Positions 23,183-44,696 of a stretch of DNA of 64,000 bases are shown one piece after another. Every line of letters begins with the position of its first letter. Position 1 is the first letter of the stretch. This DNA is from Asparagopsis taxiformis. Its lineage: Eukaryota > Rhodophyta > Florideophyceae > Bonnemaisoniales > Bonnemaisoniaceae. The notes under the pieces are model-generated. The model was not told the origin of the DNA. It did no database searches and saw only the letters and a list, made by a program, of their open reading frames with translations. The position numbers were made by a program, and so were the translations under genes. The DNA is taken from NCBI GenBank assembly GCA_030407315.1, contig JALQPE010001752.1, positions 1 through 64,000 on the forward strand, written 5' to 3'.

Positions 23183-24124
23183 CACAGCATAAGCAATTTT
23201 TTGAAAAACCAGTAAATTTTATGGTCTGGACCACTAGAAATTAGTGGAATGGCAAACCATCAAAAAAATCCCAGAAATTACCGGCGCCGTGCCATAGATA
23301 AGTAGTGGAAATACCGTAAAGAATGTAATGGAATGGAACTGCGCCGTGGGAGTGGGTGTAAGCACCGTGACAGTTGGAATTTTCCAGTACTGTACGGAAA
23401 AATAACATTGGAAAGGACAAAGACACGTCGCGTTGGTCATGACGGTGACCAGAGGTGGCATATTCCATTATTTTTGGAAATTCTATGCTGGAATGATGGA
23501 ACGGCCGAACCATATGTATGACAGTACCATGATGGACTGGAACCATGATCTTTGATGGTCACTCCAGTCTGTGCAATGGATGGCAGCCGTAGCAGTGCAA
23601 GGACGGTAGAGAGATGGACTGGTACTGACTGTTCCCATGTGATATCCACGTAGATGAAGTCACATTTTGGATGTCCATGAGGAATATGATATCATATGGA
23701 AGAGGAGAAATGCAAAGTGTATGGCTTTAACTATCCTATCTCGATATGGTCATTGTTTTATCATAGATAGGGTATGGTCGAAAGAATGGAACCATCTACA
23801 TTGATTTTTAGCACAGATAATACGGCTTGGTTACTATTTTAGTCGCTAAAGTCTGTAATCAAGCCACTCCCCTATACACGGGATTGACCCGAATAGTGAT
23901 TTTCGCCCTGGCTTTAAGCGTTAGTAGTAACATAAACGCAGTAGTAGTGTAGTTGACAACTTTTGTGGCAGTGGGGAACATTGTAGTGATTTCGTATCAT
24001 ACGGTAAAAATGCAAAATTGGACGTTACGGATATGGGTGAGTAGTATTGAAGAAGTCAACGAAGACTTTTCCTAAACAGAATTGCAAATTGTGGGCTCTA
24101 GTATCTTTATTTGGTGGAGGAACT
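23183..24124. repeat. Left arm of element X, no gene
   Basis: AT-rich sequence with short diverged repeats of the type GATGGACTGGAACCATG and GTGGAATGG. It weakly mirrors the right arm (43780-44690). No supported coding region; the promoter of the reader-like gene should lie at its right end. Confidence 0.6.
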
Positions 24125-25819
24125 ATGACCAGGCGGGAATCATTGCGAATTAGGCGCCAAAGCGAAAAAGCAATAGCGTGTCGGGAGCGTGAACGAGCTG
24201 CAGCTGTTGATGCACTTCCGTCTGTCGGCACCCAAATAGAGGTATGGTTCCAGGTGGGGGACGACTCAATGTGGTGGAAGGCTGTGGTAGTGGAAATGAA
24301 ACTTCCCGAGCAGTATCCTATTTGCTCGGGTAAACCATCAGTGGGTGACCGCATCGATGTGGACAGAGGAGATGGCGTGTACACGCCCGGAGTGGTGGAG
24401 CAGCAGGGTCAGGATTTGGATACTGCAATTGTGAAGTTGACGACGGAGGAAAAGGATATTGCAGTAACGGAAGTGTCAAAGTGGCGGTATTCGGATTCTG
24501 TGAAGCCAAGGCATGATGAAATAGTGGTTGCAGAAGGCAGATTGTTATACGATGCAATTCCTGAAAGGAATTACCCTTGCGTCTCCTATGAACACGTAAA
24601 ATTTGTGCTGGGAAGTAAGTTAATGTCCGGGGGTCAGCCACCAACACCGTGGCGAAGGAGCAACGGAGAGGTTGTGGACTACGAAGAGGCCGGAGTGGAA
24701 CATCATGTCGAATCGGATGGTGAATCTGAAGCGATGTCCCCGCAAAAGAAGAAGCCAAAAGTGGAATCGGTACTTGATTCCAACACATACAGTGGCATGG
24801 AGAAGAGGCTGAGAACACTAGAAAGTATTATTCTTTCTGGAAGTGGTGGCGATCATCGGATGGTTTACGATGGGAAAGTTCCAATAGAACCTGCACTCAC
24901 GTCCACTGGACCGGTTCTATTGATGCTTTTGCGCCGCTCAGTCGAGAAAGCTGTAGAACAGGCAAACAGAGTTACGTTGTCAAACTCCGGGACGGATTTT
25001 CCGCATAGTGAGGTGGATGGTGCATGTACCAGTGGGACAGTTGTGAGTGGTCCAGTGCATATTCCTGCTTCATTGAGCACAACCGTATTCCGGGAAATGT
25101 TGAAGGGAACAACAGAGTTGTATGCAGGATGTTATTACAAAGTTTACCCTGGGCTTCATGAGGCAGTGAGCGGAACTGGTGCTGAAGCTGTGAACATTAC
25201 ATGTTCCAGTTTTGCAGCAGTATCGGACTTGTTAGGATTACCTCACCCGTGGCGAATGGAGTCATTGCTGCACAGACGAAAGCCTGGAGCGGCAGTGGAA
25301 GAGGAAGAAGGGGGAGTGATTAGCGGAAATCGGCCTAGGAGGCCATTGTTCTTGCGCTTGCTTGGTGCATTGTTGTGCACAGAAACGACGAACGGAGATC
25401 CATCATCTGTTGCAATTGGCAGTAGCTCGTTCTGCGTATCCGGAGCAAAATCGAACACGTGGTGCCTAGTGCGCAAGAATAGTTCTGCGGTCCAAGGTCA
25501 ATATGTGCATGGCATGGAGCTGAAAAAATGCCCATCGATTTGTGCCGTACATAGGAGGCCTGACGGGGATGCGAGTCGGGAAGGGTGGAAAGGTGACGGG
25601 AAGAAGAGTTTTCGTATAGAATGGCAACCGATAACGCATAAGAAAAGGGGACAGACAGGGGATGTGTTGTGGGGAACATTTCGAATTCATATACCCTACG
25701 TCGTATTCCGAGGTTTTGGCGAACCATGGCGAATAGACAAGTTGATATCGGAAGATCTAGTCAAAGATGTGGTGGGGTATAACTTTTCAGACAAAAGGGC
25801 AGAGGAGTACATAAAATGA
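24125..25819 (+). CDS. Reader-like nuclear protein of element X (Tudor/Agenet-like N-terminus)
   Basis: 564 residues from the first ATG (context AACTATGA); the open frame extends 26 codons upstream but only from a TTG. Residues about 30-135 hold two copies of a small beta pattern: V-G-x-x-I-E-V-W...W-W-K-A-V-V, then V-G-D-R-I-D-V...Y-T-P-G-V-V. This resembles tandem Tudor, Agenet or other Royal-family chromatin readers. A basic KKKPKVE motif near residue 210 is a likely nuclear signal, followed by a heptad-like stretch MEKRLRTLESIIL. The C-terminal 250 residues (from about PVHIPASLSTTVFREML) form an unknown globular domain ending in HIPYVVFRGFGEPWRIDKL. It is convergent with the next gene, 127 bp away. 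No family is certain; the Tudor call is inferred from pattern. Confidence 0.6.
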   Translation: MTRRESLRIRRQSEKAIACRERERAAAVDALPSVGTQIEVWFQVGDDSMWWKAVVVEMKLPEQYPICSGKPSVGDRIDVDRGDGVYTPGVVEQQGQDLDTAIVKLTTEEKDIAVTEVSKWRYSDSVKPRHDEIVVAEGRLLYDAIPERNYPCVSYEHVKFVLGSKLMSGGQPPTPWRRSNGEVVDYEEAGVEHHVESDGESEAMSPQKKKPKVESVLDSNTYSGMEKRLRTLESIILSGSGGDHRMVYDGKVPIEPALTSTGPVLLMLLRRSVEKAVEQANRVTLSNSGTDFPHSEVDGACTSGTVVSGPVHIPASLSTTVFREMLKGTTELYAGCYYKVYPGLHEAVSGTGAEAVNITCSSFAAVSDLLGLPHPWRMESLLHRRKPGAAVEEEEGGVISGNRPRRPLFLRLLGALLCTETTNGDPSSVAIGSSSFCVSGAKSNTWCLVRKNSSAVQGQYVHGMELKKCPSICAVHRRPDGDASREGWKGDGKKSFRIEWQPITHKKRGQTGDVLWGTFRIHIPYVVFRGFGEPWRIDKLISEDLVKDVVGYNFSDKRAEEYIK

Positions 25820-25946
25820 TACCAGTAGTGCAATGAATAAAGCAAAAACGGTTCTGCCAGGCTAATAGAGACACATGTATACTGAGAACTAGAGGCAAAC
25901 AATGCCAGGTTACGTAGGCAAAGATAGCAGAACAGTAAACAGAAAT

Positions 25947-27620
25947 CTACACATCAATTAAAGAAATACCAAGTTCATCATCTTCCTCTAGAGGTACACA
26001 ATGAACATTAGATGCTACCCTGGCTGTTGGGTTTTCGTAGGATTGTTCCATCTGTGTGGCATTAGAATCGAACCGCACCGACATGTATTCCTCTGCAGTG
26101 ATGTTTCTCTTCTTCCTAATAATACCTAGAAGGCAATCACCCCCCATGAGGTAGTCACGGAGGTCGATGTGACCCCATGTAACACGCAGAGGGAAACCAT
26201 CATTCCCGAAATTACCGGTAGGCGCCATTGTAAGGGCTGTGGTGAATAACCCGTGCAGGCAAATTGCAATGCGATAACATGCCTGAATTGAATGGGGTTC
26301 GTGACAGAGCATCTCGAGTTGTGTGCATTGGCAGAAACTACACAACAATATCATAGCTAATGTAAGAAAAGAAAAAGAACAGACGGCCAATCTCTCAACC
26401 GGGGCCTTTGTACCTGCATTGCAGGAGCCGTCTACGGCGCCGCTAACCTGAACTTTGTAAGTAACCTGAATGTGAAGCTCAGGTCGACTCAAAATAAAAT
26501 CCGAGAAGATATCATCATTTTTGGAATAGACAGCTTGAGACTCATCCCCTGTGCCGTAAGCTTTCGAAGTTATCGGAATTTTTTCAGATGGACACATATC
26601 CAATGCAGAAATGTCATTGTCAGGCGAAAGAGAAACTTTAGCCTGCATATCTCGATGGATGAGGAAGAATGCATGTTTGACTAATTCCATTTTCATCTGC
26701 TTCCGGGAAGTATTGAAAAACTGTGTGAGCTGCCGCAGTGCCGAAGTAACGATCGGAATGGACTGTAAGTCCGAAGGAGAAAGATTAGATACACAAGAAG
26801 ACGAAGATGAGGAAGAACCAGTACGGCGCTGTTCTCCTTTAGAACCCGAGAGTCGGCGACGTTTCGAATAATTGATTGGTAGAGTTGTGGACTGTGGCGC
26901 AGGTCGATCTGTTTCCGTTGGCATCGAAATATCCATGGCATGGAAAAGAGCCCGCTGCGAAATCTGCAACCAAGCAGGCTTATTGATTGGCACGATGGTT
27001 GCATTGCGAAGTGCGTAGTCACGAGAAATGGTATTGCTGTTCAGGTCATCCTCCTCCCCAGGGTCAAGGGTACCAGAATTCCTCGTCGCCGAATCCTTCC
27101 ATCGCACAATTCTGTCATTTGCCATAGAAATAAACGCAGTTCCGACAATAGCACGTTTCAGGAACACATGCTTTTTCCCTACAGCTGTTCCAATTAGGGA
27201 TTTCTTGGACTGCCTGACCTCAGAATTAGAACTGGATGTCTGAGAGAAGGAAAGGGAAGCCAGAAGCAAAGTAGTGCAGGAATCTTCATTTGAACACGGT
27301 ACAGATGTTGCACAGAACGAGTTTGGGGTAACAGAGGTTTTGATGAACTCTGCAATGGTTCGAAACGCGACGAACCTGGATGTCACAAGTCTGTTGTTGA
27401 AAAGAGAGGACACCAGAGTGGTAACTTGTGCTGATTTTCTTGAACGCTCTTCCAGAACCACAGGTGGAACAACGTTTGTACCAGCTGCAGCAGAGGCCAT
27501 ATACCGAATGCAGGCTAGTTCCATTTGAACAGATGAAAGAGAATCGCGGAGGTACTGTTCAAGGTAGGCAAACCGTTCCTCAAACTGCGCAAACCTGGTT
27601 AAGGATAGTTCGTCTCTCAT
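25947..27620 (-). CDS. Unrecognised coiled-coil protein of element X
   Basis: 557 residues from the first ATG at 27620; the longer frame to 27692 begins with TTG and is not preferred. The N-terminus FEERFAYLEQYLRDSLSSVQMEL is a likely coiled coil. The middle is Ser-rich with a basic cluster SKRRRLSGSKG (possible nuclear signal) and a run of serines. The C-terminal third contains hydrophobic and Cys-rich stretches and GHIDLRDYLMGGDCLLGIIRKK, which resemble no domain I know. A possible 76-bp GT-AG intron (26413-26338, minus strand) would change the frame, so the C-terminal structure is uncertain. It may partner with the convergent reader-like protein, but that is only proximity. Confidence 0.5.
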   Translation of the reverse strand: MRDELSLTRFAQFEERFAYLEQYLRDSLSSVQMELACIRYMASAAAGTNVVPPVVLEERSRKSAQVTTLVSSLFNNRLVTSRFVAFRTIAEFIKTSVTPNSFCATSVPCSNEDSCTTLLLASLSFSQTSSSNSEVRQSKKSLIGTAVGKKHVFLKRAIVGTAFISMANDRIVRWKDSATRNSGTLDPGEEDDLNSNTISRDYALRNATIVPINKPAWLQISQRALFHAMDISMPTETDRPAPQSTTLPINYSKRRRLSGSKGEQRRTGSSSSSSSCVSNLSPSDLQSIPIVTSALRQLTQFFNTSRKQMKMELVKHAFFLIHRDMQAKVSLSPDNDISALDMCPSEKIPITSKAYGTGDESQAVYSKNDDIFSDFILSRPELHIQVTYKVQVSGAVDGSCNAGTKAPVERLAVCSFSFLTLAMILLCSFCQCTQLEMLCHEPHSIQACYRIAICLHGLFTTALTMAPTGNFGNDGFPLRVTWGHIDLRDYLMGGDCLLGIIRKKRNITAEEYMSVRFDSNATQMEQSYENPTARVASNVHCVPLEEDDELGISLIDV

Positions 27621-27692
27621 GTCAGCCTGGAATAAGGAGATCTTCACAGATATGTTTCGTAACGTCAGAGCTACTGGGATCAGGTATTCCAA

Positions 27693-28159: not shown

Positions 28160-31100
28160 TTAAACTGAGAAGTAGTCATTACCATATTCTATGAACAGCT
28201 CGGAGCCAGCAGAGATCGGCACGTTGGCAGTAACACAGACAACTTGATAGTTTGAGACAGTATTCTCGTCGAGGAGCTCTTGAACGGGAGACGAGAAACT
28301 AACGTTAGCTGCGCGTGAAGGACGTTCAGTTCCCTCAGCTGGATCCACAAAGTTGGGGTCATTGATTTTCGAAGCGACACAGTACTCGAAAGGGACGACA
28401 AATATGGGGCTTCCAGCAGTAGAAGGAAGCAAACAAGATATATTCGAATCCTTGATTTGAAGAGCGTAGCTTCTGAAGCGCTCCACGGTAAATGCGGTGG
28501 GACCTGTTCCAAACGTCTTGCCTTTTGATTTATAGAGATCTCTGTAAACCAATGAACCGAAATAAAATCCAACAATGTCACCAGGGTCGATCTGGCCTCT
28601 GGCAAAAAGACCGTCACCAGCCCCCGGAATAGTTGAGGGCGCGACGTACACGTTGTGTGCCATGGCATCAATGGAAAGCAGAAGATTGTTGTCAATGGTG
28701 GACAGCATGCCGAGAAGTGATTGAGGCCATTTGTGAACTGGAAGGTCGCCCAGTTGTTTGTATTGGTCTGGGATACCCCACATGCTAGTGAGGAAACTGA
28801 CGAGGTGGGGCGGAAGTCGCGTAGCAACTGGCAAACCTGAGGTAGGCTTTGAAACCGTACCCTCCTCGGAAACCGGTAGATGTGATGAGGCGAGTTGTTG
28901 TAGCGAAGGATTGGAGAGCTGAGCAAAATTACCAATTGCTACTTGACGCAGAAATGCAGTATGAACTCTCGGAAGAGATAATTCAAAGCAATCTTTGTAC
29001 TTTTCACAACCGACAAACCGCCTATACTGACCGTGGCGCATGTTAAGGCAAGCGACTGCAGTGGAGAATGTTCCGGCGAACAAGTCGACAACCAAATCTC
29101 CCTGGTGTGAAAATCGCCCAATTAGTTCCTGCAACAAACCAACGAGCTTCTGCTCCGGGCGCAGTACCTTGTTCTTCTGTTCCGTTTGGTCGAAATATTT
29201 GACAGTCTCTGAAGGCGATATCCTTGGAATGTTGTCGATAATATTTGTCCATGCTCGGAATCTGGTTGGGATGTAACCGGCATTTTTATAGTTCACCATC
29301 GCCCATCCTTTTCTTCCCTTTCCGAGCTTTGTAGCATGTACAACCAGCTCAGACATATTCATTAAACTGGTCGTAAATCTATATGGCGGAGAAGTGAAAT
29401 GCGTTGGGCTCCGAATACAGAAGATAGGCTGTGAATCAACTGAAAACATGGGAGTGTTCGTAGAAGTCTTGACCTTTCGGAGTTCGTAAACCCAGTTGTA
29501 GAAAAGGGCAGCAGATGTGAAGATGAGAACATGACCACCCTGTCGTGTTACCTTTGCGATAGTTGCCACTGTGTCCACGATTTCTTGTTGGCGGAGAATG
29601 TCATACGCTGAATTCTCTCTCCCAGCTGTTCGTCTCGAATTATACGGTGGATCTGTGAGAACCAATTGGGCACCCTCTACAAGCTCCGGTTTTGCAGGAA
29701 TATCAATGCGTTCATAGGTCTCAAGAAGATCTCTGAAACTGCAATTGAGTGTGTGTAGGCAAGAAGCCTTCATGTTTTGTAGGTTTGCTGGAATTGAAAC
29801 AGGGTCTCCGAGACGCATAGATTCGATGTCTAAGGACTCGGCAGTACTTGTGTCTGATGGCCTTCTATGAGCGCTCACCGGCTCAGAAGTGCGAGCTGAC
29901 TTTGCAGGAACATCAGTTTCATTACTGTTGTCCAGTCGCTTCCGTTTGACACCTGTATCCGTGTTTTGTTCAATGGATGGTGACGCAGGAACGGGAGCGA
30001 AAGATGTATCAGCTTCTCCAAAAAGCTCCTCGTTTGGTTCAGGAGTCGATTGTGGTAGTTCAGAGTTTCTGAAGGCCGTGAGCTGCCTCTCGACGTTTTG
30101 AAGGCCAGGAATAGAAGTGAACCTCCCAGAATCAGTTTCTATAGAATCTTCCTGTGCTTCGAATGCGCAAAGAAACGCGTTTTGTTTCGGAGAAGAAACG
30201 GTCTGGTCAAATAGTTTTCGATCCTTAGTAATATCTGTAATGTGTGCCCAGAAGGAGGAGGCGCAGAGGCGCATCTGAGCGTCTTGGAGGACGGAGCGAT
30301 GAACTGCTCGATGGGATATACTTTTGGCATGCTGCAACTTTCGCACGGCCCCTCTGCCATGCAATAACGTCTTTAGCTCTCGAAGAGGAGAGAACCCCCT
30401 TTCCTCTGAGTCTAGCACATGGTACTTGAACATGCGCTGATCATAAAGAAGATAAGGTTGGAGAAGTTCCTCGGCCGTTGAAACATCCAGTGCACGAGCC
30501 AGTGTATCCCATGCCTTCACGACCACATGAATAGCGTAGCCGAGGCGCTGAGCGGAAGCAGGAGATTCCTTTCTGATCAATACAGTTCGATTAGACGAGG
30601 ACCTTGTTCTCGGCCTCACCGGGGTGGCTTTTAAATCTCTTTCCATTTGTAGCATAGCCATGAGAAATATAATCTTCTCGAAAGCGGAAGAAACTCTTGG
30701 AGTAGCCCAGTTTCCATGGTCCGTAGTTCGTAGCTGGGTATGCGCAACAAAGAATTGGCAAGCCAGAGTCTGCCGCACGAATGATTCACGACCAATTGAA
30801 GACCGAGACGCCGTGTGCACTGAGTGGAAATACTGTGCAACGGGAAGAGGTTCCGAACCTTGGCTGTGGAGGCTTTGGCTGGATGGTAACTTTGTGGTTG
30901 TTCTGTGCTCTTCTACAACGAACACTGGCGTGAAGAGAGACATTGATAAGTCTTGTAAGGAACAACTGGTCAGGAACATATCCCAAACCCTCGTGTCTAC
31001 GTCGTTAGACCCCTCATCGCATTCCGAAGACGAGAAAGTGCGGAGGGACTGGACGATATTGAAGGTATGACGATGGTAGGCCTTCCCAAACCAATCTTCC

Positions 31101-31657
31101 ATGACAGCGACTGCCGCAGGCGGAAGCTTTGATTGGAACATGGCCTTGACAGCAGCTCGAAATCCTGGGAGGGTGCGATGTGCAAGGGGAACGTTATCCT
31201 CATTCCTCTCCCGATCATGCCAGTAGTCACGAAGGTATGCAAGTATGGCAACTGATTCAGTGAAGGGAACCCGTCTTTCTCTCCTGAGGATGTGATAAAC
31301 AATAGAGATCAGTGTGTGTGGCTCTGAAGAGATAGACTCGTAGCTCATGCGTACTAAAAACCGTGAAGTTTTCGTGCGGGGGCGCGACCAGATCTCCTCA
31401 CAGACGTCCATGCCTCCGACAAGGGTGACATCACCATTTTCAGTGATAGATCCGTAAAGATGGAGTGCATCAAAGTCCAGAGACACTCGGGAAGAAATGT
31501 CTGAAGCTGCAGTACCAAAACCTTCAATTGCTGGTATAGAAACAACACGAGCTGGATCTACCCATATGATAGTTCCGTCTCCATACAAGTCCCCTGGATT
31601 GGTGGGGCCACGCTCGCTTGCAGAGATAACAGCCCCATGTTTCATTGTATCAACCAT
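28160..31657 (-). CDS. DNA methyltransferase (DPPY, permuted) fused to SET-like domain
   Basis: 1165 residues, ATG at 31657. Residues 1-600 are a large region of unknown fold followed by an acidic/Ser-rich linker. Residues about 640-900 form an adenine/N4-cytosine-type DNA methyltransferase. Catalytic motif IV DPPYN is at 669-673, followed by GGHVLIFTS, and the SAM-binding motif I DLFAGTFSTAVAC starts at 858. Catalytic motif before SAM motif is the beta-class order (N6_N4_Mtase family). DPPY rather than SPPY favours N6-adenine, but does not prove it. Residues about 1000-1165 read as a SET domain: VYVAPSTIPGAGDGLFARG and GDIVGFYFG at its start, ISAGSELFIEYGNDYF at its end. The usual N-H-x-x-x-P-N core is replaced by a weaker AANVSFS, so lysine methyltransferase activity is doubtful. 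Divergent from the ParB gene; one 3.5-kb frame without breaks. Confidence 0.8.
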   Translation of the reverse strand: MVDTMKHGAVISASERGPTNPGDLYGDGTIIWVDPARVVSIPAIEGFGTAASDISSRVSLDFDALHLYGSITENGDVTLVGGMDVCEEIWSRPRTKTSRFLVRMSYESISSEPHTLISIVYHILRRERRVPFTESVAILAYLRDYWHDRERNEDNVPLAHRTLPGFRAAVKAMFQSKLPPAAVAVMEDWFGKAYHRHTFNIVQSLRTFSSSECDEGSNDVDTRVWDMFLTSCSLQDLSMSLFTPVFVVEEHRTTTKLPSSQSLHSQGSEPLPVAQYFHSVHTASRSSIGRESFVRQTLACQFFVAHTQLRTTDHGNWATPRVSSAFEKIIFLMAMLQMERDLKATPVRPRTRSSSNRTVLIRKESPASAQRLGYAIHVVVKAWDTLARALDVSTAEELLQPYLLYDQRMFKYHVLDSEERGFSPLRELKTLLHGRGAVRKLQHAKSISHRAVHRSVLQDAQMRLCASSFWAHITDITKDRKLFDQTVSSPKQNAFLCAFEAQEDSIETDSGRFTSIPGLQNVERQLTAFRNSELPQSTPEPNEELFGEADTSFAPVPASPSIEQNTDTGVKRKRLDNSNETDVPAKSARTSEPVSAHRRPSDTSTAESLDIESMRLGDPVSIPANLQNMKASCLHTLNCSFRDLLETYERIDIPAKPELVEGAQLVLTDPPYNSRRTAGRENSAYDILRQQEIVDTVATIAKVTRQGGHVLIFTSAALFYNWVYELRKVKTSTNTPMFSVDSQPIFCIRSPTHFTSPPYRFTTSLMNMSELVVHATKLGKGRKGWAMVNYKNAGYIPTRFRAWTNIIDNIPRISPSETVKYFDQTEQKNKVLRPEQKLVGLLQELIGRFSHQGDLVVDLFAGTFSTAVACLNMRHGQYRRFVGCEKYKDCFELSLPRVHTAFLRQVAIGNFAQLSNPSLQQLASSHLPVSEEGTVSKPTSGLPVATRLPPHLVSFLTSMWGIPDQYKQLGDLPVHKWPQSLLGMLSTIDNNLLLSIDAMAHNVYVAPSTIPGAGDGLFARGQIDPGDIVGFYFGSLVYRDLYKSKGKTFGTGPTAFTVERFRSYALQIKDSNISCLLPSTAGSPIFVVPFEYCVASKINDPNFVDPAEGTERPSRAANVSFSSPVQELLDENTVSNYQVVCVTANVPISAGSELFIEYGNDYFSV

Positions 31658-33553
31658 CGCGCCTTGAATATAGCAATAGAAGAGGAAAAGAAGGCAGAAT
31701 CCGAAATGAGGTCGATGCGTCGGTGGCAGCGGAGGTGCTGGTAAGAAAAGGACCGCAAATTTGAAATCGTAATTTGTGCATTCCTCGGAACAATCTGTAA
31801 AGTGCTATGGAGAGGTCGCGAGGACATGCATGTCAGCACCTGACATTACAAGGGTTGTCCATGAAACTATGAGAATCCGAACTGAACGGTTGGAAGTATC
31901 GTATTAGTGAAATCGGGGTCTACTGCGGAGGACTCTAAGCTGGCTAATACACTGCTTCCACCCGTTCACACCTCATTCACTGTCTATGCAAAATACAATT
32001 TTCGTGGAAGACATCCCACACCCCTTCTAGAACGGTTCTCATGATATTAATACCGGAGCGGATCGATGGAATTGAGCGTGAAGGGGCGCACGTCTCGAAT
32101 TATAGCGCTATAATTCGAGACGTGCCACTTGTGGTAAATTGCGCGCGCAATTTCCCACAAGTGGCAATGGGTGGGCAGCAGCGAACGAACGCGAACAGGC
32201 GATTTCGGAGATGATAAAATTTGGTAATTTTTGGGCTCCAAAAATTACTCGAGTAAAAACTGATCTAGGAGAGCTAGATCAGTTTTTACTCGAGTAATTT
32301 TTGGAGCCCAAAAAATACCAAATTTTATCATCCACGGAAAGGCGCTGTGGAGGTGTTCTGGTCGTTGGTAGCAGTGCCAAGGCACACCTGAGGAGTGGTA
32401 TGGAAGGTCCCCAACCTTTGTTCTAGCTCACTTCGGCCCAGCTTTCAAAAATGGTACAACAGTAAATGATAGCCGGACGGGCACACAAAGACGCGGAGTG
32501 AGGTGTATTGAGGTCGGTTCAGATAGGTAGATGAAGACGTAGAGAGTGGTGGAGTGGGTTTGGTGGCGAGCAGAAAGGCTGCCATGGTGGTCCGAACGGA
32601 CGATTTGGGAGATGATAAAATTTGGTAATTTTTGGGCTCCAAAAATACTCGAGTAAAAACTGATCTAGTCTTTGTCGAGCTAGATCAGTTTTTACTCGAG
32701 TAATTTTGGAAAAGGCGCCAGCAAAATTACCAATTTTATCATCTACGGGTAAAAGATAGCGACTGTGAGATTGGGTCGTTCAGATAGGTAGATGAAGACG
32801 TAGAGAGAGCGAGTGCCATGGTGGTCAACGGACGATTTGGGAGATGATAAAATTGGTAAGGGCTCCACCGAGTAAAACTGATCTAGAAGATCAGTTTTTA
32901 CTCGAGTAATTTTGGAGCCCAAAAATTACCAATTTTATCATACGGAAAAGGCGCTGTGGAGGTGTTCTGGTCGTAGGGAGCAGTGCCAAGGCACACCTGA
33001 GAACCGTTATATCTAACGAGAACAAAAGATACTGACACTTCAGCACTGCGCGGAAAAGGTAGGTAGGAGAAATAAAAGGGTGTGAGGCTCAATAAACGGT
33101 TCGTGTAGCTGCATCCGGCACATGTCTGAAGAACATTGACTAACTGGAACAAGTCATGAATGGTTCAGGACTACTTCCGTTGTATTAATACTTGCTGAGA
33201 TAGAGTCAGTTTCCATTTCTTCTTTTCTTATTTATAATATACGAGTCATGAAAGGTGTATGTAGTTCGGTAACTTTTCGAGATTGCAAAATTACCGAAAT
33301 TAACATTTTTATTCGAACTGGCGCTATGACCGTTTATTCGATTCAGGTTGGACCATGCGCCAATAGAAACCGCTCGCGCGGTCTGAATTTTTACGCACAG
33401 TTTTGGTGTCCTTCCAGTTGAACAAATTTGTTGTTAATACATTGTCCCTCGCTGGCTAGCTGATTAGTACTCCCCTGCTACTTGAAAGGCATACCGCGTT
33501 ACTCTGGTACCGTTTCAATCGTCAGCTATTCGACCCTCCTTGCGATCCCAACC
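31658..33553. promoter_or_regulatory. Divergent intergenic region with nested palindromes and three long hairpins
   Basis: 1.9 kb separate the divergent methyltransferase and ParB genes, so both promoters should lie here. It holds a 32-nt perfect palindrome (32091-32122, centre AGCGCT), directly followed by a second palindrome (32123-32166, centre GCGCGC). Long hairpins lie at 32210-32333, 32611-32743 and 32843-32941, each with arms GATGATAAAATTTGGTAA... and CTCGAGTAAAAACTGATCTA meeting at a short loop. The third is shorter. No gene is supported between them. Confidence 0.7.
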
Positions 33554-36500: not shown

Positions 36501-37165
36501 TGGATGTTTTCTTTGCTATCATAGCAGAAAAGTTGCATCTAGAGGATTCAACTCCGTCTCTGGACGGATTTGAAAAAGGCCCGAAGCTCCAGTTCGGGAA
36601 GACAGGGCTCAGGTTGCTTCTAACTGGATCTCGTTGCGAGCGCCAAGTCCCACATCTCGACTTCGTCTACCCTGGTCCTCCGTTAGAAGACGAAAACCGC
36701 TTCAACGGGACTCCTATTCCATTTCCGGATTATTCATTCATCGCTACTGGTGCAATGGGCACTCCGCTTATTGTACGGCCGCGAAGCCATGCATTCCTTA
36801 ACGCTCCCCATCGATCTGCAGCGGCCATATTTCCCCTTCTCAAGCCAGAATTGGTATGGATCCCACCGTATTCTGTTATAGTATGTCGTGGGGACCTCGA
36901 GCACAGCGGCCCGGGATGGAAAGATCACGAGCTGATGAAAACCAAGCTTGGGAAGAAATACAAGATGGTTTATCCTCATCATATTAGGGCCCACACCATG
37001 GCAATTCGGGAAACATCGGTCTTAGTCAACGATCTAGTCTATGCACCGTTGAAGGACTCGCGTCCGGTCGCAAGGCCAGATATGTACGAGTTACCCCACG
37101 ACGTCGAGAGTGATACCAGCTCTTCTTCAGCTGGCAGTTCTGGGGAGGATTACATGGAAGTCTAG
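33554..37165 (+). CDS. ParB-like / zinc finger / 2OG-Fe(II) dioxygenase-like fusion protein
   Basis: 1203 residues from the ATG at 33554 (context ACCATGA). The open frame reaches 33482, but only from a TTG. Residues about 35-130 are a ParB/Srx-type domain with DGLHRRRAL at 98-106, close to the G-E-R-R-x-R-A nucleotide-binding box, followed by a helical region to about 330. A charged low-complexity linker holds three DAPEKDAPEK-like repeats (near residue 500). A Cys/His cluster at 587-645 (C-x6-C, C-x2-C, C-x3-C) looks like a zinc finger. From about 893 the C-terminal domain reads YVVLDGILQPSEL, then H1034-x-D1036, VRPRSHAF, and H1117 in CRGDLEHSG. This is the H-x-D...H iron triad on a double-stranded beta-helix, nearest in style to PhyH/TET-like dioxygenases. 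The HIRAH arginine may bind 2-oxoglutarate. The substrate is unknown; DNA or chromatin is inferred from context. Confidence 0.75.
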   Translation: MSLRPRRGEASSSARQLVIPAMSRSVASSLSNYVFKMIKLPILDIYVPDETSREVDDSHVDLLFRKMVMEGFQTSAVGCITVVSLPYQSSGSRYYIVDGLHRRRALLRCKEKGVERLASVVDNVPVQEAQRPDGEKMTMEDMLYLSQRLNELVHTVLPTTVRDRIHAIISIYNCNVKYARPGERTVADMPASQVANWFFQRHFSGILKKSTVSSIVNVALNMRRSPRTYAAYKASSGRKENEVGISLLILKDTAFTRAEDRASELMVKCIHYRNVQLLPTFGRVPSFDLRTYLTYIQQYYEVIREMARASNLSTEDIADLEDLESDGTDMIPTWKSVYKRMIQYEEEPVPRKPENQEARLESFRSVLRDRFGIQSTRQVSSESHGPDEEEDGNGENKGVQDKRQGGEPVTQAIMQASQSTGAAQPATKTTGASRHERRLTQFEDVIMEPLPIPISSDDVVIDETVEELPSTPASKQVIPETSAGSDDDMEISKDAPEEDAPEKDAPEKDADSPHPEQLGSEDENRSEPPDAHSTPSSRNEIGADGAEDGTEVQKAPDSASKGASKTVSNITVSRIPRDSTTPRPFPCSLGDYCAFPGSAAVHKCTACGINPVHNLCDYARVHHLIPRKYLAAGERDMVFVCSRKCYDGGKDGDPPSWKPPAGVTEQEAWEGDDFNPYAKASSSTDSVEKPQQPSEPAPQQTGAKRKFPSSPGAPPAKRRAISSPQSLSFPSRLTRSKARSAAIAEHIASLDSPSTPSVTPRSASGTKKTKKAAIALKQVKQGNDEGGSMDGNEDSGEEKEDEDQITPTRLQSKGFKVHRYEDQQPEPPSFFTSHTSVEEAASMVRSISSLLHPEHRSGFHVTEGEVEEFQQDIESVAGDTSSSRLVYFERARARLDSLGYVVLDGILQPSELSSTIHKLLDSFCNMFVDGQDGAWGPILNSGSSDQDARGGPDEQRFMTPCKAVVEDLEKDSTSTLARDKAALDVFFAIIAEKLHLEDSTPSLDGFEKGPKLQFGKTGLRLLLTGSRCERQVPHLDFVYPGPPLEDENRFNGTPIPFPDYSFIATGAMGTPLIVRPRSHAFLNAPHRSAAAIFPLLKPELVWIPPYSVIVCRGDLEHSGPGWKDHELMKTKLGKKYKMVYPHHIRAHTMAIRETSVLVNDLVYAPLKDSRPVARPDMYELPHDVESDTSSSSAGSSGEDYMEV

Positions 37166-37551
37166 AATCTGTTAGTTACCGTAGACATTAGTTGATCTCT
37201 CGTATTTCAACGATTCTGTTGCTTGCTGCAACCAGTTGACTATTCCATAACTCTACGATATGTCTTCATAAACCGTCTCTTTTTTCATTCTATACATCAA
37301 CTCTCCCAGCCAACCTGAGCTGAACAAACAGAGCGTGATATTGAAATATACCTGTCCTGTCCCTTCCTCCATGTACACCTCCCTTCTCGTAGATACTTGT
37401 CTAGCTTTTAGTTACAGTTACAGTTCTATCATCTTTTAAAGCAGAGTAGAAGTAGGCTAGAACAAAGGTTTGGGACCTCTCATACTACTCCGCAGGTGTG
37501 CCTTGGCACTGCTACCAACGACCAGAACACCTCCACAGCGCCTTTTCCGTG

Positions 37552-38076
37552 GATGATAAAATTTGGTAATTTTTTGGGCTCCAAAAATTACTCGAGTAAA
37601 AACTGATCTAGCTCCCGACAAAGACTAGATCAGTTTTTACTCGAGTAATTTTTAAAGCCCGAAAAATTACCAAATTTTATCATCTCCCAAATCGTCCGTT
37701 CTGACCACCACGGCAGCCTTCCTGCTTGCCACCAAACCCACTCCACCACTCTCTACGTCTTCATCTACCTATCTGAACCGACCTCAATACACCTCACTCC
37801 GCGTCTTTGTGTGCCCGTCAGGCTATCATTTACTGTTGTACCATTTCTGAAAAGCTGGGCCGAAGTGAGCTAGAACAAAGATTTGGGACCTCCCATACTA
37901 CTCCTCAGGTGTGCCTTGGCACTGCTACCAACGACCAGAACACCTCCACAGCGCCTTTTCCGTGGATGATAAAATTTGGTAATTTTTTGGCTCCCGACTA
38001 GATCAGTACTCGAGTAAAATTACGTTCAATTTTTTTCCAGTAATTTTCGCACCTCAAAAGTTACGAAATTTCAGCA
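37552..38076. repeat. Two long hairpins downstream of the ParB gene
   Basis: Inverted copies of the hairpins at 32210-32941 lie at 37552-37684 and, degraded, at 37965-38076. Their flanks (GTGCCTTGGCACTGCTACCAACG and similar) also match 32345-32400 in inverse. The ParB gene is therefore bracketed by inverted repeats on both sides. The rest of 37166-38354 shows no gene. Confidence 0.8.
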
Positions 38077-38599: not shown

Positions 38600-41500
38600 A
38601 TGTCTCCCGAAGGCCTACTTCCGCAGGAAGGTAGCATTGCCTTCGCAGACAGCGATGGTATCCAATATATCGTTCCCCCTGCTTTGGAAGGTCATCAAGT
38701 TTTAAGTACTGTTGAAGATGAAGTCGTTTCCGTGCCATGCAGCGAGAACGCGACCAGGGGGCCTACTCATGACATCGAAACTGATAGAACAGGAGGTTCC
38801 GAACATTATCCTGGCCATATTGATGAAGATGATACACATCCAGAATTTAATGATGTGTGTGCTGAAGATGAAGACCTTCTTCTACAAGAAATGACACAAT
38901 CGAAGCTTCTCCTCTCGTCCCCTTTCATCGAGGATACCTCGAATCCGCTCAAGGCACGCCAATATATGACGCAATGGACAACTCTGTATGCAGTAGCGAA
39001 GTTGACCGGATCCATGAAATGCACTGCCGCAGATCTGAATGAAGATCGCGTTTTGTTCGATTTCGCAAGGAAGGGTTCAACTGAAAAGCACGTTCAGAAA
39101 GGGCTACCTCATTATTCTACGATCACCCGAAAAGTTAGACCATGGCTATTCTTCAACGCCTGGTTGCGTTCGGAAACGGTGTATTTCCCCGTGAATGTAG
39201 ACCGCAGTGCAGCACGTATGGCATCTCAGGCCATTTTGCGAAGAAGCAAGATTGAACAGAACACCGCTGGCCAAACTGCACCAGTACTAATCGTTCTACC
39301 AAGTGAATACGCCCGAGAAGACATATCTACTCCAGAACTGTTCGATCTTGCCTGGCGCCATAACGTAGCCTCCAAGTCATTCGAATCTGATGGGGTACCA
39401 ACTATACATGGAAACATATATACGTCGAATCTGGGGAAATTCAGAGAGCGCTTCGTGAAAGGACAAAACCACTCTCTCAGTGCTGAGGAGATGGATGGTA
39501 CACCCATCACTGCTTTCGGGGGTGGTACTGTCCAGGTCCGAGTTACCACTGGTCAACAAGCCAACCATCTGGACCCTAGAGCCGCCTCCTGCTTTCAGAA
39601 GAAATCAATTTCCTCCAACTCAGATTCTTTCGTGGCTTTCACGTCCTCTTCATGGGTGAACAACAGTAAGGCCTCTGATCAGCAGCAGTCCGTTTCTCCC
39701 CACTCCTTCGGGCCTGGTTTGGTACTCCGCAAAAAGTCCTTTGAGCAATTCGCTCGACCTGGAGATCATCTCACACTTTTATCTCCTGCTTCAGGATGTA
39801 ACTTTACGTATACTACTGGGCAGCCTTTCATCGTCGGTCTTATAGTCAGCTCTCCGGGTCCCCCGTCTCCATTTCGCAAACTCATGTTCTTCATCAATTC
39901 TGAAGGACTTTACACTAATATCGGTGGCAGTCGTGCGATTAACAATGTCATTTTATTGAGTCAGGGCACGAATACCCTTCCCTGCCATCCGACAAGTATC
40001 CGTGGTGTTCTCGACTGTGGCACCACATACTATGTCTACCCTTTTCTTTTGTACTGCGATGACTTCAATGAGGCCTCTGGTAAGAGTGGTAGTGCTGGAG
40101 GATGTTATATGATCCCCATGGGGCTGCCCCTGGACTGTCGCCGGAATAGTTCTGCAGTGCGTATTATCGGTGTCACTGGTCCCGGTGTAAGTACAAACCA
40201 TATTCTTCGACATATCTCTCGCGACATAATCCAGGGATGTACGACTGGTTTCCATGACGTAGATCCAGAGGGTAACGATTGCATCATTTTCCTGGACTTT
40301 GTCGGTTTTGTATCAGACTATCCCGCATGTTCCCATGTTCTCGATGTCATGGGACACAATGCAGATTGTCCATGCCACTTGTGTTTCTTCGTCAGAGGAG
40401 GTAAACACGGGAAACATTCACAGTTCGGGTACGACACCAGTCTTCATTCTAGTTCGGATTCTCTATTCCGTACTTCAGAGAGAACTCAGGCAGTTCAGTC
40501 ATCACAAAGTACGGTGAGCATCATGAAATACCTGGGAATGAGGAAAGTGCAAAGCGCTACTGAAACTCCAATGCTTCTTATAGAGCAACTGCTTGATGAA
40601 ACTAGGTCTAAAGGCCTCGTTCCATCTGGCACACCCCTTGGTATGGATTCTGTGAGCATCCCTGTTGTTCCCGCTATTATTGATTCATACCGTTCCACAT
40701 TTATTGGGATCGACCACCTCCTCCAAGGGCTTGCTAAGGATGCCCTGGACAATGCTTTTTCGTGCCTGCCTAGTGATGGTAGTAGAAGGATGGCAGAAAG
40801 TTTTATGGTAGATGCCCTTCACGTCCTAGGTCTCACTAACCAGAAGAGGATATATAACTTCACCTCGGGTGAAACAAATACAATGGGAATCTCGGACAGA
40901 TTTGCTTTACTTCTAGTCGCAGATCACTGTTTTGGGTTGGCTCTGAGCTTCCAGTCCGGGGAGTCTTCAGAAGGCTCTGGAGCAAGGTCTATCCGAGCTT
41001 CCGAGAAGCAAAGAGAACTTTCCCTAGAACTTGTTCGATTGCTATCCTCAATCGCCGCAGCTACTTATTTTCTACCTCGTGTCGATATTGACGGCATAGA
41101 GTCAGTACAGAGCGCGACCGGACTATCGGCAGCTAAGCGTTTTCGAAAACTGCAACAGCTTTCGAAAGATTATGCAAAACGTGTAGATGACCTGCTCGTA
41201 ACCGTTCCTCCGAGAAAAAGGAGTACGGTACCATCAAAGAAAAGAAAACTGAAAGGAGACGGCTCTGTGGTAATTGACGCCGACCAAAATGAAGTTGAAC
41301 AGAAGACTACGGGATTCAGGGCAAGGAAGCTTTTGGACAATAAGCCAAACTTGCATAGACTCATTGAAGCTTTCGAACACACGGTTCCTCTACTCAACCA
41401 TGCTCGTCAGGTGGCTGAACTTTCCTTCGAAGCAACCCACCAACAGATGAAAAGAGGACTTGAACGTTCGGGAGGTGCTGACAGGCAGTTGGATGCAATG

Positions 41501-42373
41501 ATGGCTGCACTTGGAAACCACTGGAAGGGAAGGCTCAACCTGGCTCTCAACAATTTTTCAAATGCGCCACCAACTTCTGTTCAGCGAGATATCTCGAAAC
41601 GATTCCTTCTCCGGGTCTTGTTCGGACGCGACCATTGTAAATCGATGGAGGATATCCCAGCAAGCACTCTACATGATCTTCGGCAGGACCCACTTCTCGA
41701 ACATCTCAGGAAGTCTTCTCTCCCATGCTTCTCATCTCCTTTTTCATATTACTTTTGGTCTCCTGTGCGTTCCATATCAACCCAGCAGGACTTCACCTGT
41801 GGGCACAATTCAGATACTTTACACATTTCTGGAATACTTTGCAAAGGTGCTCGACTTATTTCTATGCACCCTGCTTGCTCCACACCATTCTCTGGTACAT
41901 CTAGAGAGTTTTTCAAGTGTCATGAAATAGCTTCCGGGTGTGTTGTACAAGCTTGCTACTCGAATTTGCTAAATTCTAAGATCTTACAGAAGACTTCTTC
42001 ACCCTCCTTCTGGGCTGTAGATACTGTCTTCGAACCGGCTTCGGGACAAGAACACGTCCTACCTCATCTCTCTACGAAGGACAGATCTTCCGGCGGAATT
42101 AATCCTCTATCTTATGCAATTGTGCATTGTGTTTCCAAGAATAACTCCGATAATTCTAGTTTTACTGTGAATAGGGATTCAGGTTCCTGGTTCCTCCCTC
42201 TTACATCCGGGGTTCGAAAGGTTGGCTTGCTGCACAACTGCACTCCGTCACTTTGCAAAGTGGACAACAGGAGTGGAAGAGGAGGGATAACGCACGGTGG
42301 TCCTTCTTTCACAGAAGGAGGTTCTTTCTCTTTCATTACCAGAGCGGATGGTTATCCGCCAAGGACAGCGTAG
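38600..42373 (+). CDS. KDZ/Plavaka-like transposase of element X
   Basis: 1257 residues from ATG. The order of motifs matches Plavaka-type transposases of the KDZ group. YPFLLYCDDFNEASGK (CDD at 486-488) corresponds to the family Y-x-D-D-x-S-G motif. GLPLDCRRNSSAVRIIGVT follows, then FVSDYPACSHVLD (D573). CPCHLC at 590-595 is the family Cys/His cluster. GIDHLLQGLAKDAL (D705) resembles the family D-x-x-H-x-x-x-x-G-x-x-K-D segment, and SFEATHQQMKRGLERS (E944) its E-x-x-H-x-x-x-K segment. These are candidate DDE residues, assigned by eye. A basic KKRKLKGDG near 880 may be a nuclear signal. KDZ elements are known mainly from fungi and a few other eukaryotes, some with TET/JBP dioxygenase genes, which fits the neighbour. 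No internal stop in 3.8 kb. Confidence 0.65.
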   Translation: MSPEGLLPQEGSIAFADSDGIQYIVPPALEGHQVLSTVEDEVVSVPCSENATRGPTHDIETDRTGGSEHYPGHIDEDDTHPEFNDVCAEDEDLLLQEMTQSKLLLSSPFIEDTSNPLKARQYMTQWTTLYAVAKLTGSMKCTAADLNEDRVLFDFARKGSTEKHVQKGLPHYSTITRKVRPWLFFNAWLRSETVYFPVNVDRSAARMASQAILRRSKIEQNTAGQTAPVLIVLPSEYAREDISTPELFDLAWRHNVASKSFESDGVPTIHGNIYTSNLGKFRERFVKGQNHSLSAEEMDGTPITAFGGGTVQVRVTTGQQANHLDPRAASCFQKKSISSNSDSFVAFTSSSWVNNSKASDQQQSVSPHSFGPGLVLRKKSFEQFARPGDHLTLLSPASGCNFTYTTGQPFIVGLIVSSPGPPSPFRKLMFFINSEGLYTNIGGSRAINNVILLSQGTNTLPCHPTSIRGVLDCGTTYYVYPFLLYCDDFNEASGKSGSAGGCYMIPMGLPLDCRRNSSAVRIIGVTGPGVSTNHILRHISRDIIQGCTTGFHDVDPEGNDCIIFLDFVGFVSDYPACSHVLDVMGHNADCPCHLCFFVRGGKHGKHSQFGYDTSLHSSSDSLFRTSERTQAVQSSQSTVSIMKYLGMRKVQSATETPMLLIEQLLDETRSKGLVPSGTPLGMDSVSIPVVPAIIDSYRSTFIGIDHLLQGLAKDALDNAFSCLPSDGSRRMAESFMVDALHVLGLTNQKRIYNFTSGETNTMGISDRFALLLVADHCFGLALSFQSGESSEGSGARSIRASEKQRELSLELVRLLSSIAAATYFLPRVDIDGIESVQSATGLSAAKRFRKLQQLSKDYAKRVDDLLVTVPPRKRSTVPSKKRKLKGDGSVVIDADQNEVEQKTTGFRARKLLDNKPNLHRLIEAFEHTVPLLNHARQVAELSFEATHQQMKRGLERSGGADRQLDAMMAALGNHWKGRLNLALNNFSNAPPTSVQRDISKRFLLRVLFGRDHCKSMEDIPASTLHDLRQDPLLEHLRKSSLPCFSSPFSYYFWSPVRSISTQQDFTCGHNSDTLHISGILCKGARLISMHPACSTPFSGTSREFFKCHEIASGCVVQACYSNLLNSKILQKTSSPSFWAVDTVFEPASGQEHVLPHLSTKDRSSGGINPLSYAIVHCVSKNNSDNSSFTVNRDSGSWFLPLTSGVRKVGLLHNCTPSLCKVDNRSGRGGITHGGPSFTEGGSFSFITRADGYPPRTA

Positions 42374-44696
42374 AAATCTATGAAATTGTGTATTCGGTTT
42401 GGTTCGTCCTGTCAGAATGCTTTTTCTTGGATTCACTCATTCCTGTTCTACAGATACTACTTTTTGTACTTCTCCAGCCGAATATATGACTTTATTCCTT
42501 TCCGCACTCGTAAACTTGCACCTGTTTGTCGCTAGACTACTTCCCTATCCTTTTCCGACGTATTTATTCCCCAGTCTACCTTCAGCTTATCCATTCGTTG
42601 AACTACCGTCAACCTGAACCAGCTGTGCTGCAGTAAAAAGTGATCTACCAAATGCATCTTCCTAGATCACTTTTTACTGCAGTAACTAGTCATTTTTTTC
42701 TAATTTTTCATCATTGGCTCCTTAGCCTGCAATACACGTTTCCGCTCAAAAGCGTGCAGCTATACGCCAGTGTTCTAGTTCATGACGTGTCCATGACGTG
42801 TCCATCTCGAGTCCATGCCGTGTCCATGAATCATCGATGATTTGTCTCTGATTTGTCAGTACGAAAAGCGCGCGCTTTCTCACTACGCAAGTGAAATACG
42901 CGACCTCTGGGCTCACTCTGCAACAGTATTTAAGGCTTGCGTCACGCTAAGCGCTATCGTCATCGCCTGTCGCATGGAGCACACCACCTACGCAGGATGG
43001 GGTCGCGGTGTGCAATCGCATCCCTACGGATGTGGTTCCGCACCGCGGCCTCATCCTTCGATAAGGTTTTCCAGCTCATTTAGTCTTTTATCCATTCCTC
43101 CCACTGTCTTTTTCTGCGGTTCTTCGTTGTTCTTCTGCTAACGTACTTTGCTGCCTTTCCTACTTTCTGTTTCGTCTTTCTCCAGGGCTACTGTCATTAC
43201 TACGTTTTCTAACTTCTAATCGAGCTTTTGGCATACCGTTTCTAGCACTAACCACTGTGTCATCCACTTCTTTCCATCTCTGTGCCAGCAGAAGTTTCTG
43301 GGTTCTCTACAATACGTTTACTAAAGCTCTGGCTGCACTATCAACGGTATGTTCTCTCGCTTCTAATCATGCTTCTAGCGTTGATGAAGTTACATTCCTA
43401 GCACTAACCATTGATTCATCTATTCTTTTCCTTCCAGGTGCCAACAGAAATTTCTGGCTTCCCCTCATCTCTCTTTTCATGCCTATATGTATTTGTAGTT
43501 ACTTTATGTAGAGCTAGTGTTTTGCCGTTTAGTATCTGCCATGGTGGCGTAGTTCATAGTTCCTTAGTGCAGTGTACAGATGATCTTCATGTCGTGAAAA
43601 TTTTGGCGTTAGCTGCCCATTTACCTATTCCATATCCACTATACCATATCGTAAATCTTGCGTGCCCGCTACTGGCTGCACCCTAGTCTAATTCTTTATC
43701 CCTATCCAGATTTCCATTCTTCCTAGATATCGTTTCAGTCAGACCTATCCGTCCTGCAGTTTCTCCGCAAAAGTGCGATGTGCCGCCCATTCTACCTTTC
43801 AGTTTCTACCCAGAGCGCCCACCGGTATAACCACTCTACCCAGTGGACATGGACCACGCCCACCCGACGGTACAACTACTCTACCCAGTAAACATGGTCC
43901 ACGCCAACCCGACGGTACAACCACTACATCCAGTGGAAGTGAACCGTACCCATTACAGTGCTCCACGGTGGAATAATTCCAGTGTCACGAGCAGGTGTGA
44001 TAATAGAACATATCCGGGCTTTACACAGTACTGTAGTTTGGAAACTAACCGCGCTTTGCCTTGGGCCGCACATGCCCAGTCAATGGTCCCTTTCCAAATT
44101 ATCGTTTGGCCAGTTCCACAAGTCAGCTTGGTCACGTCCCATGAGCAAAAAGTCACCTACTCTGGAATTATTCCAATGAATACAATAATCATACTTTGGT
44201 CACCGTCCATTCAGCGAGTGCTGCTTACGCCTGGTTTCAGACACCGGACCGTCACGGTGTGCCCATTATATTTTATAGTTTATTTCTACGAATCGCTCTG
44301 CACCTTCCACCACATATCGCAGTCACGGTGCACCCCATATCTAACTATACCCATATACAGTACTGGTTCCATTCCAACAGTCCGTGCCTGCGTGACTTGG
44401 CCCGTTCTAGTCAACCCGCCGTCCTGCTCATATATGGACGTGGTTCATTTCCATCCCTACGTGTCCTTCCGTACATGGTTCAGCCATCACCTCACCGCCA
44501 CACCATAGTTCTGCTTGGTTCCTGCCTACTGTAAAACAAAATCGCCGTGCTGGTCTCAGCCCATGATTTTTTACATTTTTTTCGATGGGCCTTATCCAAA
44601 CGTTGGGGATGGGCGTTCCGCTAAAATATGGTGACTAGTTCTACTGTACAATACGGCATTTTCCATGGAATATTCTCTATTTTTGCTTATGCTGTG
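42374..44696. repeat. Right arm of element X
   Basis: 2.3 kb without a supported gene. It holds a 55-nt hairpin at 42628-42682 (CTGCAGTAAAAAGTGATCTA and its inverse around a short loop). A tandem repeat of about 51 bp lies at about 43824-43960, with CTCTACCCAGT and CCACGCCCACCCGACGG. Many short GTCCAT/CCGT motifs follow. It ends in the TIR TTGCTTATGCTGTG. Open frames here are weak and compositionally biased. Confidence 0.6.

Follow-up and report, generated by a model that had tools for sequence, protein, structure and literature searches.

A giant, putatively EnSpm/CACTA-like transposon of the red alga Asparagopsis taxiformis encodes a predicted DNA methyltransferase-SET fusion and a ParB-like, oxygenase-like partner

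Introduction

Chondrus crispus, a red alga, is reported to have En/Spm families of 16-20 kb with 4-5 open reading frames (ORFs) (Kojima et al. 2013, cited in PMC6431247), and proteins that join a ParB-like domain to an N4/N6 DNA methyltransferase have been described from algal transposons (PMC12477816); throughout, published work is represented by excerpts of the cited articles, to which our statements on it are limited. Here we describe an element located at positions 23183-44696 of a 64,000-nucleotide stretch of the Asparagopsis taxiformis genome (assembly GCA_030407315.1, contig JALQPE010001752.1, positions 1 to 64,000, forward strand), which is referred to as a whole as the window. The element was found to be a complete DNA transposon of 21.5 kb with five intact ORFs, 14-bp terminal inverted repeats (TIRs) and a 2-bp target duplication. 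Because such families are on record from Chondrus, it is of a known kind; likened by description, it shares with the giant EnSpm (CACTA) elements of that species a red-algal host, 4-5 ORFs and EnSpm-type features.

The system examined here resembles the algal ParB-methyltransferase proteins, for which self-marking was proposed, in having an N4/N6 DNA methyltransferase part encoded opposite the transposase strand in a 21.5-kb element (PMC12477816). It differs in that (i) the excerpted account mentions neither a SET domain nor an oxygenase gene; (ii) the Ectocarpus transposase is Sola-1; and (iii) the ParB part of the methyltransferase protein (ORF3) is degenerate, an intact ParB motif being present in the related proteins L042 and L045 but not in ORF3. 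Fungal TET-plus DNA transposons, which include EnSpm, Plavaka and KDZ lineages, likewise carry an oxygenase gene that is thought to counter silencing (PMC12730594); unlike these, the oxygenase-like protein of the red-algal element (ORF4) has no Tet_JBP match, and its host has no detectable C5 DNA methyltransferase. The SET-carrying HarbingerS and MuDR elements of Phytophthora resemble the element as DNA transposons that carry a gene for a histone methyltransferase, whereas the excerpts mention no fusion to a DNA methyltransferase (PMC12730594). Bdelloid rotifers, which lack canonical C5 methyltransferases, also have a bacterial-type amino-methyltransferase with a chromatin domain attached, N4CMT; unlike ORF3, it is a host gene with an SPPY motif, N4-methylcytosine (4mC) activity and a chromodomain, and the excerpts do not describe it as transposon-borne (PMC8885841).

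The first-pass annotation of this DNA had set the element in a fungal frame, although the host is a red alga, and its statement that no such element had been described was too strong, both giant red-algal EnSpm elements with 4-5 ORFs and algal ParB-methyltransferase transposon proteins having been published. The SET fusion, its ParB-finger-oxygenase partner and their recurrence may be new: a literature search, which did not cover key primary sources, found no published methyltransferase-SET fusion or ParB-oxygenase in a transposon. We propose, with a probability of about 55%, that this EnSpm/CACTA-like giant transposon directs chromatin marks to itself with a net anti-silencing effect.

Element ends, copies and an empty site

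The ends of the element and the dinucleotides beside them are as follows.

23183..23196, plus strand: left TIR, exact 14-bp match, CACAGCATAAGCAA
44683..44696, minus strand: right TIR, exact 14-bp match to CACAGCATAAGCAA
23181..23182, unstranded: AC read beside the left end, putative 2-bp target duplication
44697..44698, unstranded: AC read beside the right end, putative 2-bp target duplication

When the whole window was scanned at ≤2 mismatches, the two element ends were the sole TIR matches (0.43 expected by shuffling), and 5 of 100 shuffles reached two matches at this threshold. The host assembly, G000, spans 141.5 Mb over 3156 contigs and was found to contain 95 exact TIRs (46 + 49), compared with none (0 + 0) for a reversed control pattern. 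Searches with the right 851 and left 918 bases returned 394 and 199 candidates, respectively, the best 40 of each scoring at 99-100% and 98-100% identity; these and later candidate numbers are first-look counts rather than gene counts, and identities cover the best-scored matches only. Nearly all scored right-end matches (38 of 40) stopped at query base 795-807, the element end being at 797, while the window copy and that on contig C2132 ran past the end into a common flank. TIR pairs facing each other at element length were detected on 12 contigs, with spacings of 20.5-21.5 kb on eight and 27-38 kb on four; the latter must hold further DNA. Three further facing pairs were about 2.05 kb apart (locus L047 and, by TIR spacing, contigs C286 and C2415). 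The short form at L047 retains left- and right-end segments of about 1.67 and 0.38 kb, respectively, and, as judged from this composition, is an internal-deletion derivative that presumably moved in trans; it is flanked by tt and at, with no 2-bp match.

Of the 12 long copies, all but C226 were compared at both flanks, giving 11. An identical 2-bp duplication was found in seven (GG, GC, AC three times and TA twice) and was lacking in four (C1771, C2057, C2079 and C2392), a frequency far above the chance value of 1/16 (p = 1e-6, or 1e-5 if C2132 is dropped, since its right flank is that of the window copy). The 11 copies are not fully independent, as C2057 and C2058 sit in similar flanks, and the flanks shared by L010/L012, L014/L015 and L016/L018 probably represent two haplotypes of one insertion each. 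The AC pair that the first-pass annotation had read at the window copy calls for caution: over 1554 bp of right flank the window copy and C2132 are 99.9% identical, yet they differ in 100 bp of left flank, and because of this the two AC dinucleotides may not derive from one single target. Either the window copy or C2132 is, on this comparison, apparently rearranged or misassembled at the flank (window 22800-23182 and 44697-46250). An empty site was reconstructed from the C348 copy. When its flanks were joined and one GG was removed, the resulting site was uninterrupted at all 40 scored places (973 candidates; 98-99% identity), with 39 matches covering 1-198 and one covering 1-196; the ends and the 2-bp duplication therefore hold at C348, whose target site is itself a repeated sequence.

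Thus, the mobile nature claimed for this locus was borne out by exact TIRs, numerous copies with both ends and an empty site. The same three lines of evidence rule out an assembly of host genes with chance inverted repeats, and the many two-ended copies run counter to the absence of a second copy and to the ORFs being ordinary separate host genes.

A predicted methyltransferase-SET fusion and its ParB-like partner

Read from ATG, the five ORFs encode uninterrupted proteins of 564, 557, 1165, 1203 and 1257 aa. Two of these, ORF3 and ORF4, contain the domains of interest.

28160..31657, minus strand: ORF3, 1165 aa, DNA amino-methyltransferase-SET fusion (predicted)
28979..29668, minus strand: N6_N4_Mtase domain, ORF3 residues 664-893, PF01555 1.5e-12, DPPY and FAGT motifs
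28181..28618, minus strand: SET domain, ORF3 residues 1014-1159, PF00856 7.3e-5
33554..37165, plus strand: ORF4, 1203 aa, ParB-like, zinc finger and oxygenase-like
33668..33946, plus strand: ParB-like domain, ORF4 residues 39-131, phrog_1033 4.8e-5, VDGLHRRRAL
35312..35488, plus strand: Cys/His-rich finger of ORF4, pairwise likeness to the C-terminus of the ParB-methyltransferase protein L045
36101..36997, plus strand: oxygenase-like domain of ORF4, HxD...H conserved in three families

Both domain matches uphold the earlier call that ORF3 is a DNA methyltransferase-SET fusion, and its sequence indicates an enzyme of the N6/N4 type; its best phage family was phrog_67, DNA methyltransferase. The motifs TDPP[YF] and F[AS]GT were present in all four aligned proteins of four families, and ORF3 reads DPPY, the motif of bacterial N6-adenine enzymes, SPPY being that of most N4-cytosine enzymes (PMC8885841). 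When a profile of ORF3 and L042 was compared with PDB, chains of SETD7, which is named there as H3K4-specific, were the best matches (first part of the SET domain, ~2e-4). The methyltransferase-SET part was free of stops in 39 of the 43 listed copies of the element family (92-100% identity).

The proposal that ORF4 joins ParB, zinc-finger and dioxygenase domains held in part. The ParB-like domain is the only portion of ORF4 with library support, and its DGxHRxxA motif was common to all four ParB-like proteins aligned; the Cys-rich finger was recognized, and HxD...H recurs in two other families, but no library match was found for the oxygenase. Pfam gave no Tet_JBP match in ORF4 or its oxygenase part, and a genome search with PF12851 returned 0 matches, but control genomes were equally silent. 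A C5 DNA methyltransferase (PF00145) had no candidate in the genome, while of 14 control genomes 10 gave matches; those controls that are named are prokaryotic, and an intron-split or very divergent gene could escape such a search. The host thus likely lacks a C5 methyltransferase, and because none was matched, a TET-type eraser of 5-methylcytosine (5mC) is an unlikely role for ORF4, subject to that same limit; the TET/JBP parallel drawn earlier is equally unlikely in its 5mC sense.

Transposon class

The remaining large ORF was examined for its relationship to known transposases.

38600..42373, plus strand: ORF5, 1257 aa, putative EnSpm/CMCT-type transposase with conserved DDF, DYPA..CHxC and FExxHQ blocks

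ORF5 and the transposase of a second family in the same genome (family B, L043) share FLLYxDDF, DYPAxSHxLDVxGH...PCHxC and ELxFExxHQ blocks, which we take to resemble those of EnSpm/CACTA transposases. The CMCT clade is defined by 5'-CA..TG-3' termini and a 2-5 bp target duplication (PMC12730594). The termini of the element, CACAG...CTGTG, agree with the first of these EnSpm/CACTA-like (CMCT) features, and the 2-bp duplication in 7 of 11 copies and at one empty site agrees with the second. Together, the ORF5 blocks, the CA..TG termini and the 2-bp duplication point to the CMCT clade, and we infer from these features that ORF5 is an EnSpm/CACTA-type transposase. The KDZ/Plavaka-like assignment of the first-pass annotation was abandoned. 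KDZ (Zisupton), for which the target duplication is 8 bp (PMC12730594), is ruled out by the 2-bp duplication and by the lack of a family match for ORF5; Plavaka requires TGT..ACA or CATCA..TGATG termini (PMC12730594), in place of which the element has CACAG..CTGTG. Profile searches of PDB with the ORF5-core and ORF4-oxygenase alignments returned chance-level matches only, and scans of viral contigs with the same alignments found no relatives.

Related families in the same genome

A genome search with PF01555 gave 2605 candidates, of which the best 150 were scored; all were above the cut-off and fell into several score classes. A search with the methyltransferase-SET part gave 3506 candidates, the best 79 of which comprised 43 at 92-100% identity and 36 at 74-76%. 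None of the PF01555 matches lay within 3 kb of a methyltransferase-SET match, and together they mark at least 229 amino-methyltransferase places, although in some cases two entries probably reflect the haplotypes of a single locus.

The matches at 74-76% define a sister family, A2, in which 34 of the 36 listed copies were stop-free over the methyltransferase-SET part. Contigs that hold an A2 methyltransferase account for seven of the 40 scored right-end matches (C2263, C2235, C134, C2078, C2066, C2236 and C644), the gene being 15.9-16.6 kb inside the right end; the distance in the window element is 16.5 kb, the same layout. Because the A2 right end is about 99% alike while the methyltransferase differs by about 25%, the comparison suggests an exchange of modules. 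Two repeat blocks flank ORF4, and the gap fractions between copies at these blocks were among the highest along the element; the blocks may be boundaries of an exchangeable module.

32192..33010, unstranded: left-hand repeat block beside ORF4, in inverse orientation to its right-hand counterpart; arms of up to 194 nt, 96% complementary
37415..38072, unstranded: right-hand repeat block beside ORF4, in inverse orientation to its left-hand counterpart

Family B is more distant. Its protein L042 (1186 aa) has 28% identity to ORF3 over 1121 columns, with both methyltransferase and SET domains present, and carries an intact ParB motif. The family-B transposase gave 1447 candidates (best 104 scored, at 100% identity), and transposase and methyltransferase faced each other 13.3-15.2 kb apart on 15 of the 21 contigs listed for both (16 pairs), the other six being C214, C2464, C289, C489, C625 and C718. 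One copy of the window element (L013:2415-3917) was found beside or inside a family-B transposase gene. From this copy and that of C348, which lies in another repeat, elements appear to insert into one another.

The same domains were detected in further combinations: (i) L045, a ParB, methyltransferase and finger protein with an intact ParB motif; (ii) L044, a methyltransferase protein without a SET match; and (iii) L046, a full 1184-aa ParB and oxygenase protein. The L046 oxygenase family gave 3406 candidates (best 125 scored, at 97-100%, six with a stop), and a third oxygenase type gave 3240 (best 150 scored, at 99-100%). A methyltransferase and a third-type oxygenase were divergently oriented, with 6.3-7.6 kb between the matched domains, on 5 of 13 listed contigs (C1850, C1937, C1861, C2475 and C266); these five are among the six contigs with the lowest-scoring PF01555 methyltransferase class, the sixth being C1833. 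The methyltransferase and oxygenase domains of the window element are divergent too, with about 6.7 kb between them.

Relatives of these genes were also observed elsewhere in the window. Two pieces of a ParB-oxygenase gene of the high-copy L046 family, the first of them recognized by eye, lie about 14.6 kb apart on the plus strand (1010-1516 and 16126-18427), as if another element sat inside the split gene at 1010-18427, and at 55687-56717 (minus strand) there is an oxygenase-gene relative that has decayed and contains stops. Inclusion of this second oxygenase family (window 16799-18427) in family B was unsupported, as the distances differed (10.7, 16.4 and 20.5 kb on C706, C227 and C267, respectively, shared contigs picked by eye as having both genes within about 21 kb).

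Variation among copies

Residues 11-402 of ORF4 were compared with those of L011 and found to be 69% identical, with a proportion of nonsynonymous change (pN) of 0.194 and of synonymous change (pS) of 0.865, the latter being saturated. This comparison, and the retention of the methyltransferase and SET domains at 28% identity, points to purifying selection on ORF4 and on the methyltransferase-SET protein. When near-identical copies were compared with the window, pN/pS was 0.46 for ORF1 (20 aligned segments, with copy C2217 counted twice), 0.35 for ORF2, 0.63 for ORF3 and 0.15 for ORF4, all on few changes, and 8.35 for ORF5. Among 9-10 copies, 29 of the 31 variable sites of ORF5 change the protein, one of them to a stop, and 2 are synonymous (p = 0.02); two of the protein-changing sites reflect the window copy differing from nine others.

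Proposed function and alternatives

The element is best described as a giant cut-and-paste EnSpm/CACTA-like (CMCT) transposon, one of several families in this red alga with amino-methyltransferase or ParB-oxygenase genes. In the mechanism that we propose, ORF5 would bind the TIRs, move the element and leave a 2-bp duplication; ORF3 would add N6-methyladenine (6mA) to DNA, with 4mC a less likely product, and methylate a histone lysine through its SET domain; and ORF4 would be recruited to DNA through its ParB-like domain and zinc finger and oxidize a substrate that is probably not 5mC. The net effect would be anti-silencing, with the chromatin of the element kept open and its genes and ends kept usable. 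Support for this mechanism comes from the accessory ORFs being intact, the signs of purifying selection and the same domains recurring (ParB-methyltransferase-finger in L045 and ParB-oxygenase in L046), as well as from the divergent methyltransferase-oxygenase pair on 5 of 13 contigs. Adenine methylation accompanies permissive chromatin in many eukaryotes (PMC12695648), and self-marking by ParB-methyltransferase transposon proteins has already been proposed (PMC12477816). The enzyme activities, target specificity and direction of effect are, for this element, predictions.

Several observations weigh against this proposal. Regarding ORF3, the SET 'NH' motif reads NVS, and the degenerate ParB region had no library match (PHROG). 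For ORF4, searches of Pfam, NCBIfam and PDB with the oxygenase part found nothing meaningful, a structure model of it from a 3-row alignment was unusable (predicted local distance difference test [pLDDT] score of 30.8), and the term oxygenase is thus a motif-based assignment, inferred from three families. As to the CMCT placement, ORF5 matched 0 Pfam families at E up to 1, and its core 0 at E up to 10; the model of the core from a 2-row alignment was likewise unusable (pLDDT 34.5). The pattern of ORF5 variation does not look like transposase constraint and appears as an oddity among the ORFs, while diversity is uneven along the element, such that low variation in ORF3 and ORF4 alone is not proof of selection. 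The divergent methyltransferase-oxygenase pair was not seen on 8 of the 13 contigs listed for both. CMCT transposases have C(2)C and H(3-4)H motifs between the second D and the last E (PMC12730594); C592..C595 of ORF5 is conserved, and H919 and H927 are conserved with family B, but seven residues rather than 3-4 lie between them. Finally, sequence cannot decide between the opening and the closing of chromatin.

The last point bears on the alternative that the writer closes chromatin, the methyltransferase-SET marks being repressive and serving to limit the element's own copy number or to silence competitors. This is how the bdelloid N4CMT is understood to act, as it marks silent chromatin and transposons with 4mC, in animals that have no canonical C5 methyltransferases and that use an amino-methyltransferase captured from bacteria and joined to a chromatin domain (PMC8885841). 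The coexistence of several families, with copies in or beside the family-B transposase gene and in another repeat, would fit such competition. However, the SET part best matches SETD7, albeit weakly, and not an H3K9 enzyme, and DPPY in ORF3 suggests 6mA over 4mC; we consider repressive marking unlikely. Similarly unlikely is a wider scenario in which the C5 system was lost and nuclear DNA modification comes largely from several giant transposon families, whose competing adenine writers, joined to a histone methyltransferase or a zinc finger and paired with ParB-guided oxygenases, would let elements mark, recognize and overwrite each other's chromatin in a modular arms race.

Less probable still is that the accessory genes are passengers that a successful element has captured, with little benefit to the element. 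The accessory genes of algal giant transposons are mostly without known function (PMC12477816), which would agree with passenger status, but the same domains are kept, mostly stop-free, in several deeply diverged families. The weakest candidate is that the modification serves transposition itself, with methylation of the ends timing or licensing the transposase, a role that Dam methylation has in some bacterial transposons, and ORF4 resetting the state: ORF4 has a ParB-like DNA-binding domain, as do the methyltransferases of two other families, but a short-word count of the element ends found no word far above interior controls, with no clear binding site or cluster of methylation motifs, and this role is doubtful.

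If self-directed, anti-silencing marking is correct, this would be a case of DNA transposons that combine a writer for both DNA and histones with an oxygenase partner, the same domains persisting in divergent families of a genome that yielded no C5 methyltransferase match. It would also open to testing the idea, already in print, that transposons of algae set epigenetic marks of their own, and ORF3, as a possible methyltransferase of DNA and histones alike, offers an in vitro target.

Other features of the element and window

The two remaining ORFs of the element are listed below.

24125..25819, plus strand: ORF1, 564 aa, no Pfam or PHROG family
25947..27620, minus strand: ORF2, 557 aa, no family above the cut-off, best Pfam E 0.027

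The suggestion that ORF1 is reader-like found no backing, as it matched nothing in Pfam or PHROG, and ORF2 had no Pfam or PHROG family above the cut-off. An Rfam search of the window returned no match. Outside the element, gag-like and reverse-transcriptase-like ORFs of long terminal repeat-type retroelements were observed at 46579-47970 and 60158-62280, together with a diverged gag-like stretch at about 22.3-22.9 kb. Arrays of a 35-bp unit were present at 2089-2326, 59583-59823 and 62596-62939, with many short palindromic repeats around. Probable host genes included a DUF3326 match (52127-52837, minus strand, 1.7e-33) as well as EamA transporter and glycine-transporter-like pieces (11883-12344 and 9972-10433, respectively, both plus strand). 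Elsewhere in the assembly, and in keeping with a red-algal host, 11 of 13 phycobilisome matches were on contig C469 (224 kb), whose allophycocyanin gene matches allophycocyanin chains in PDB; two equal-scoring phycobilisome matches on this contig are 177,170 bp apart, the pattern that arises when a circular plastid genome is written out beyond its starting point.

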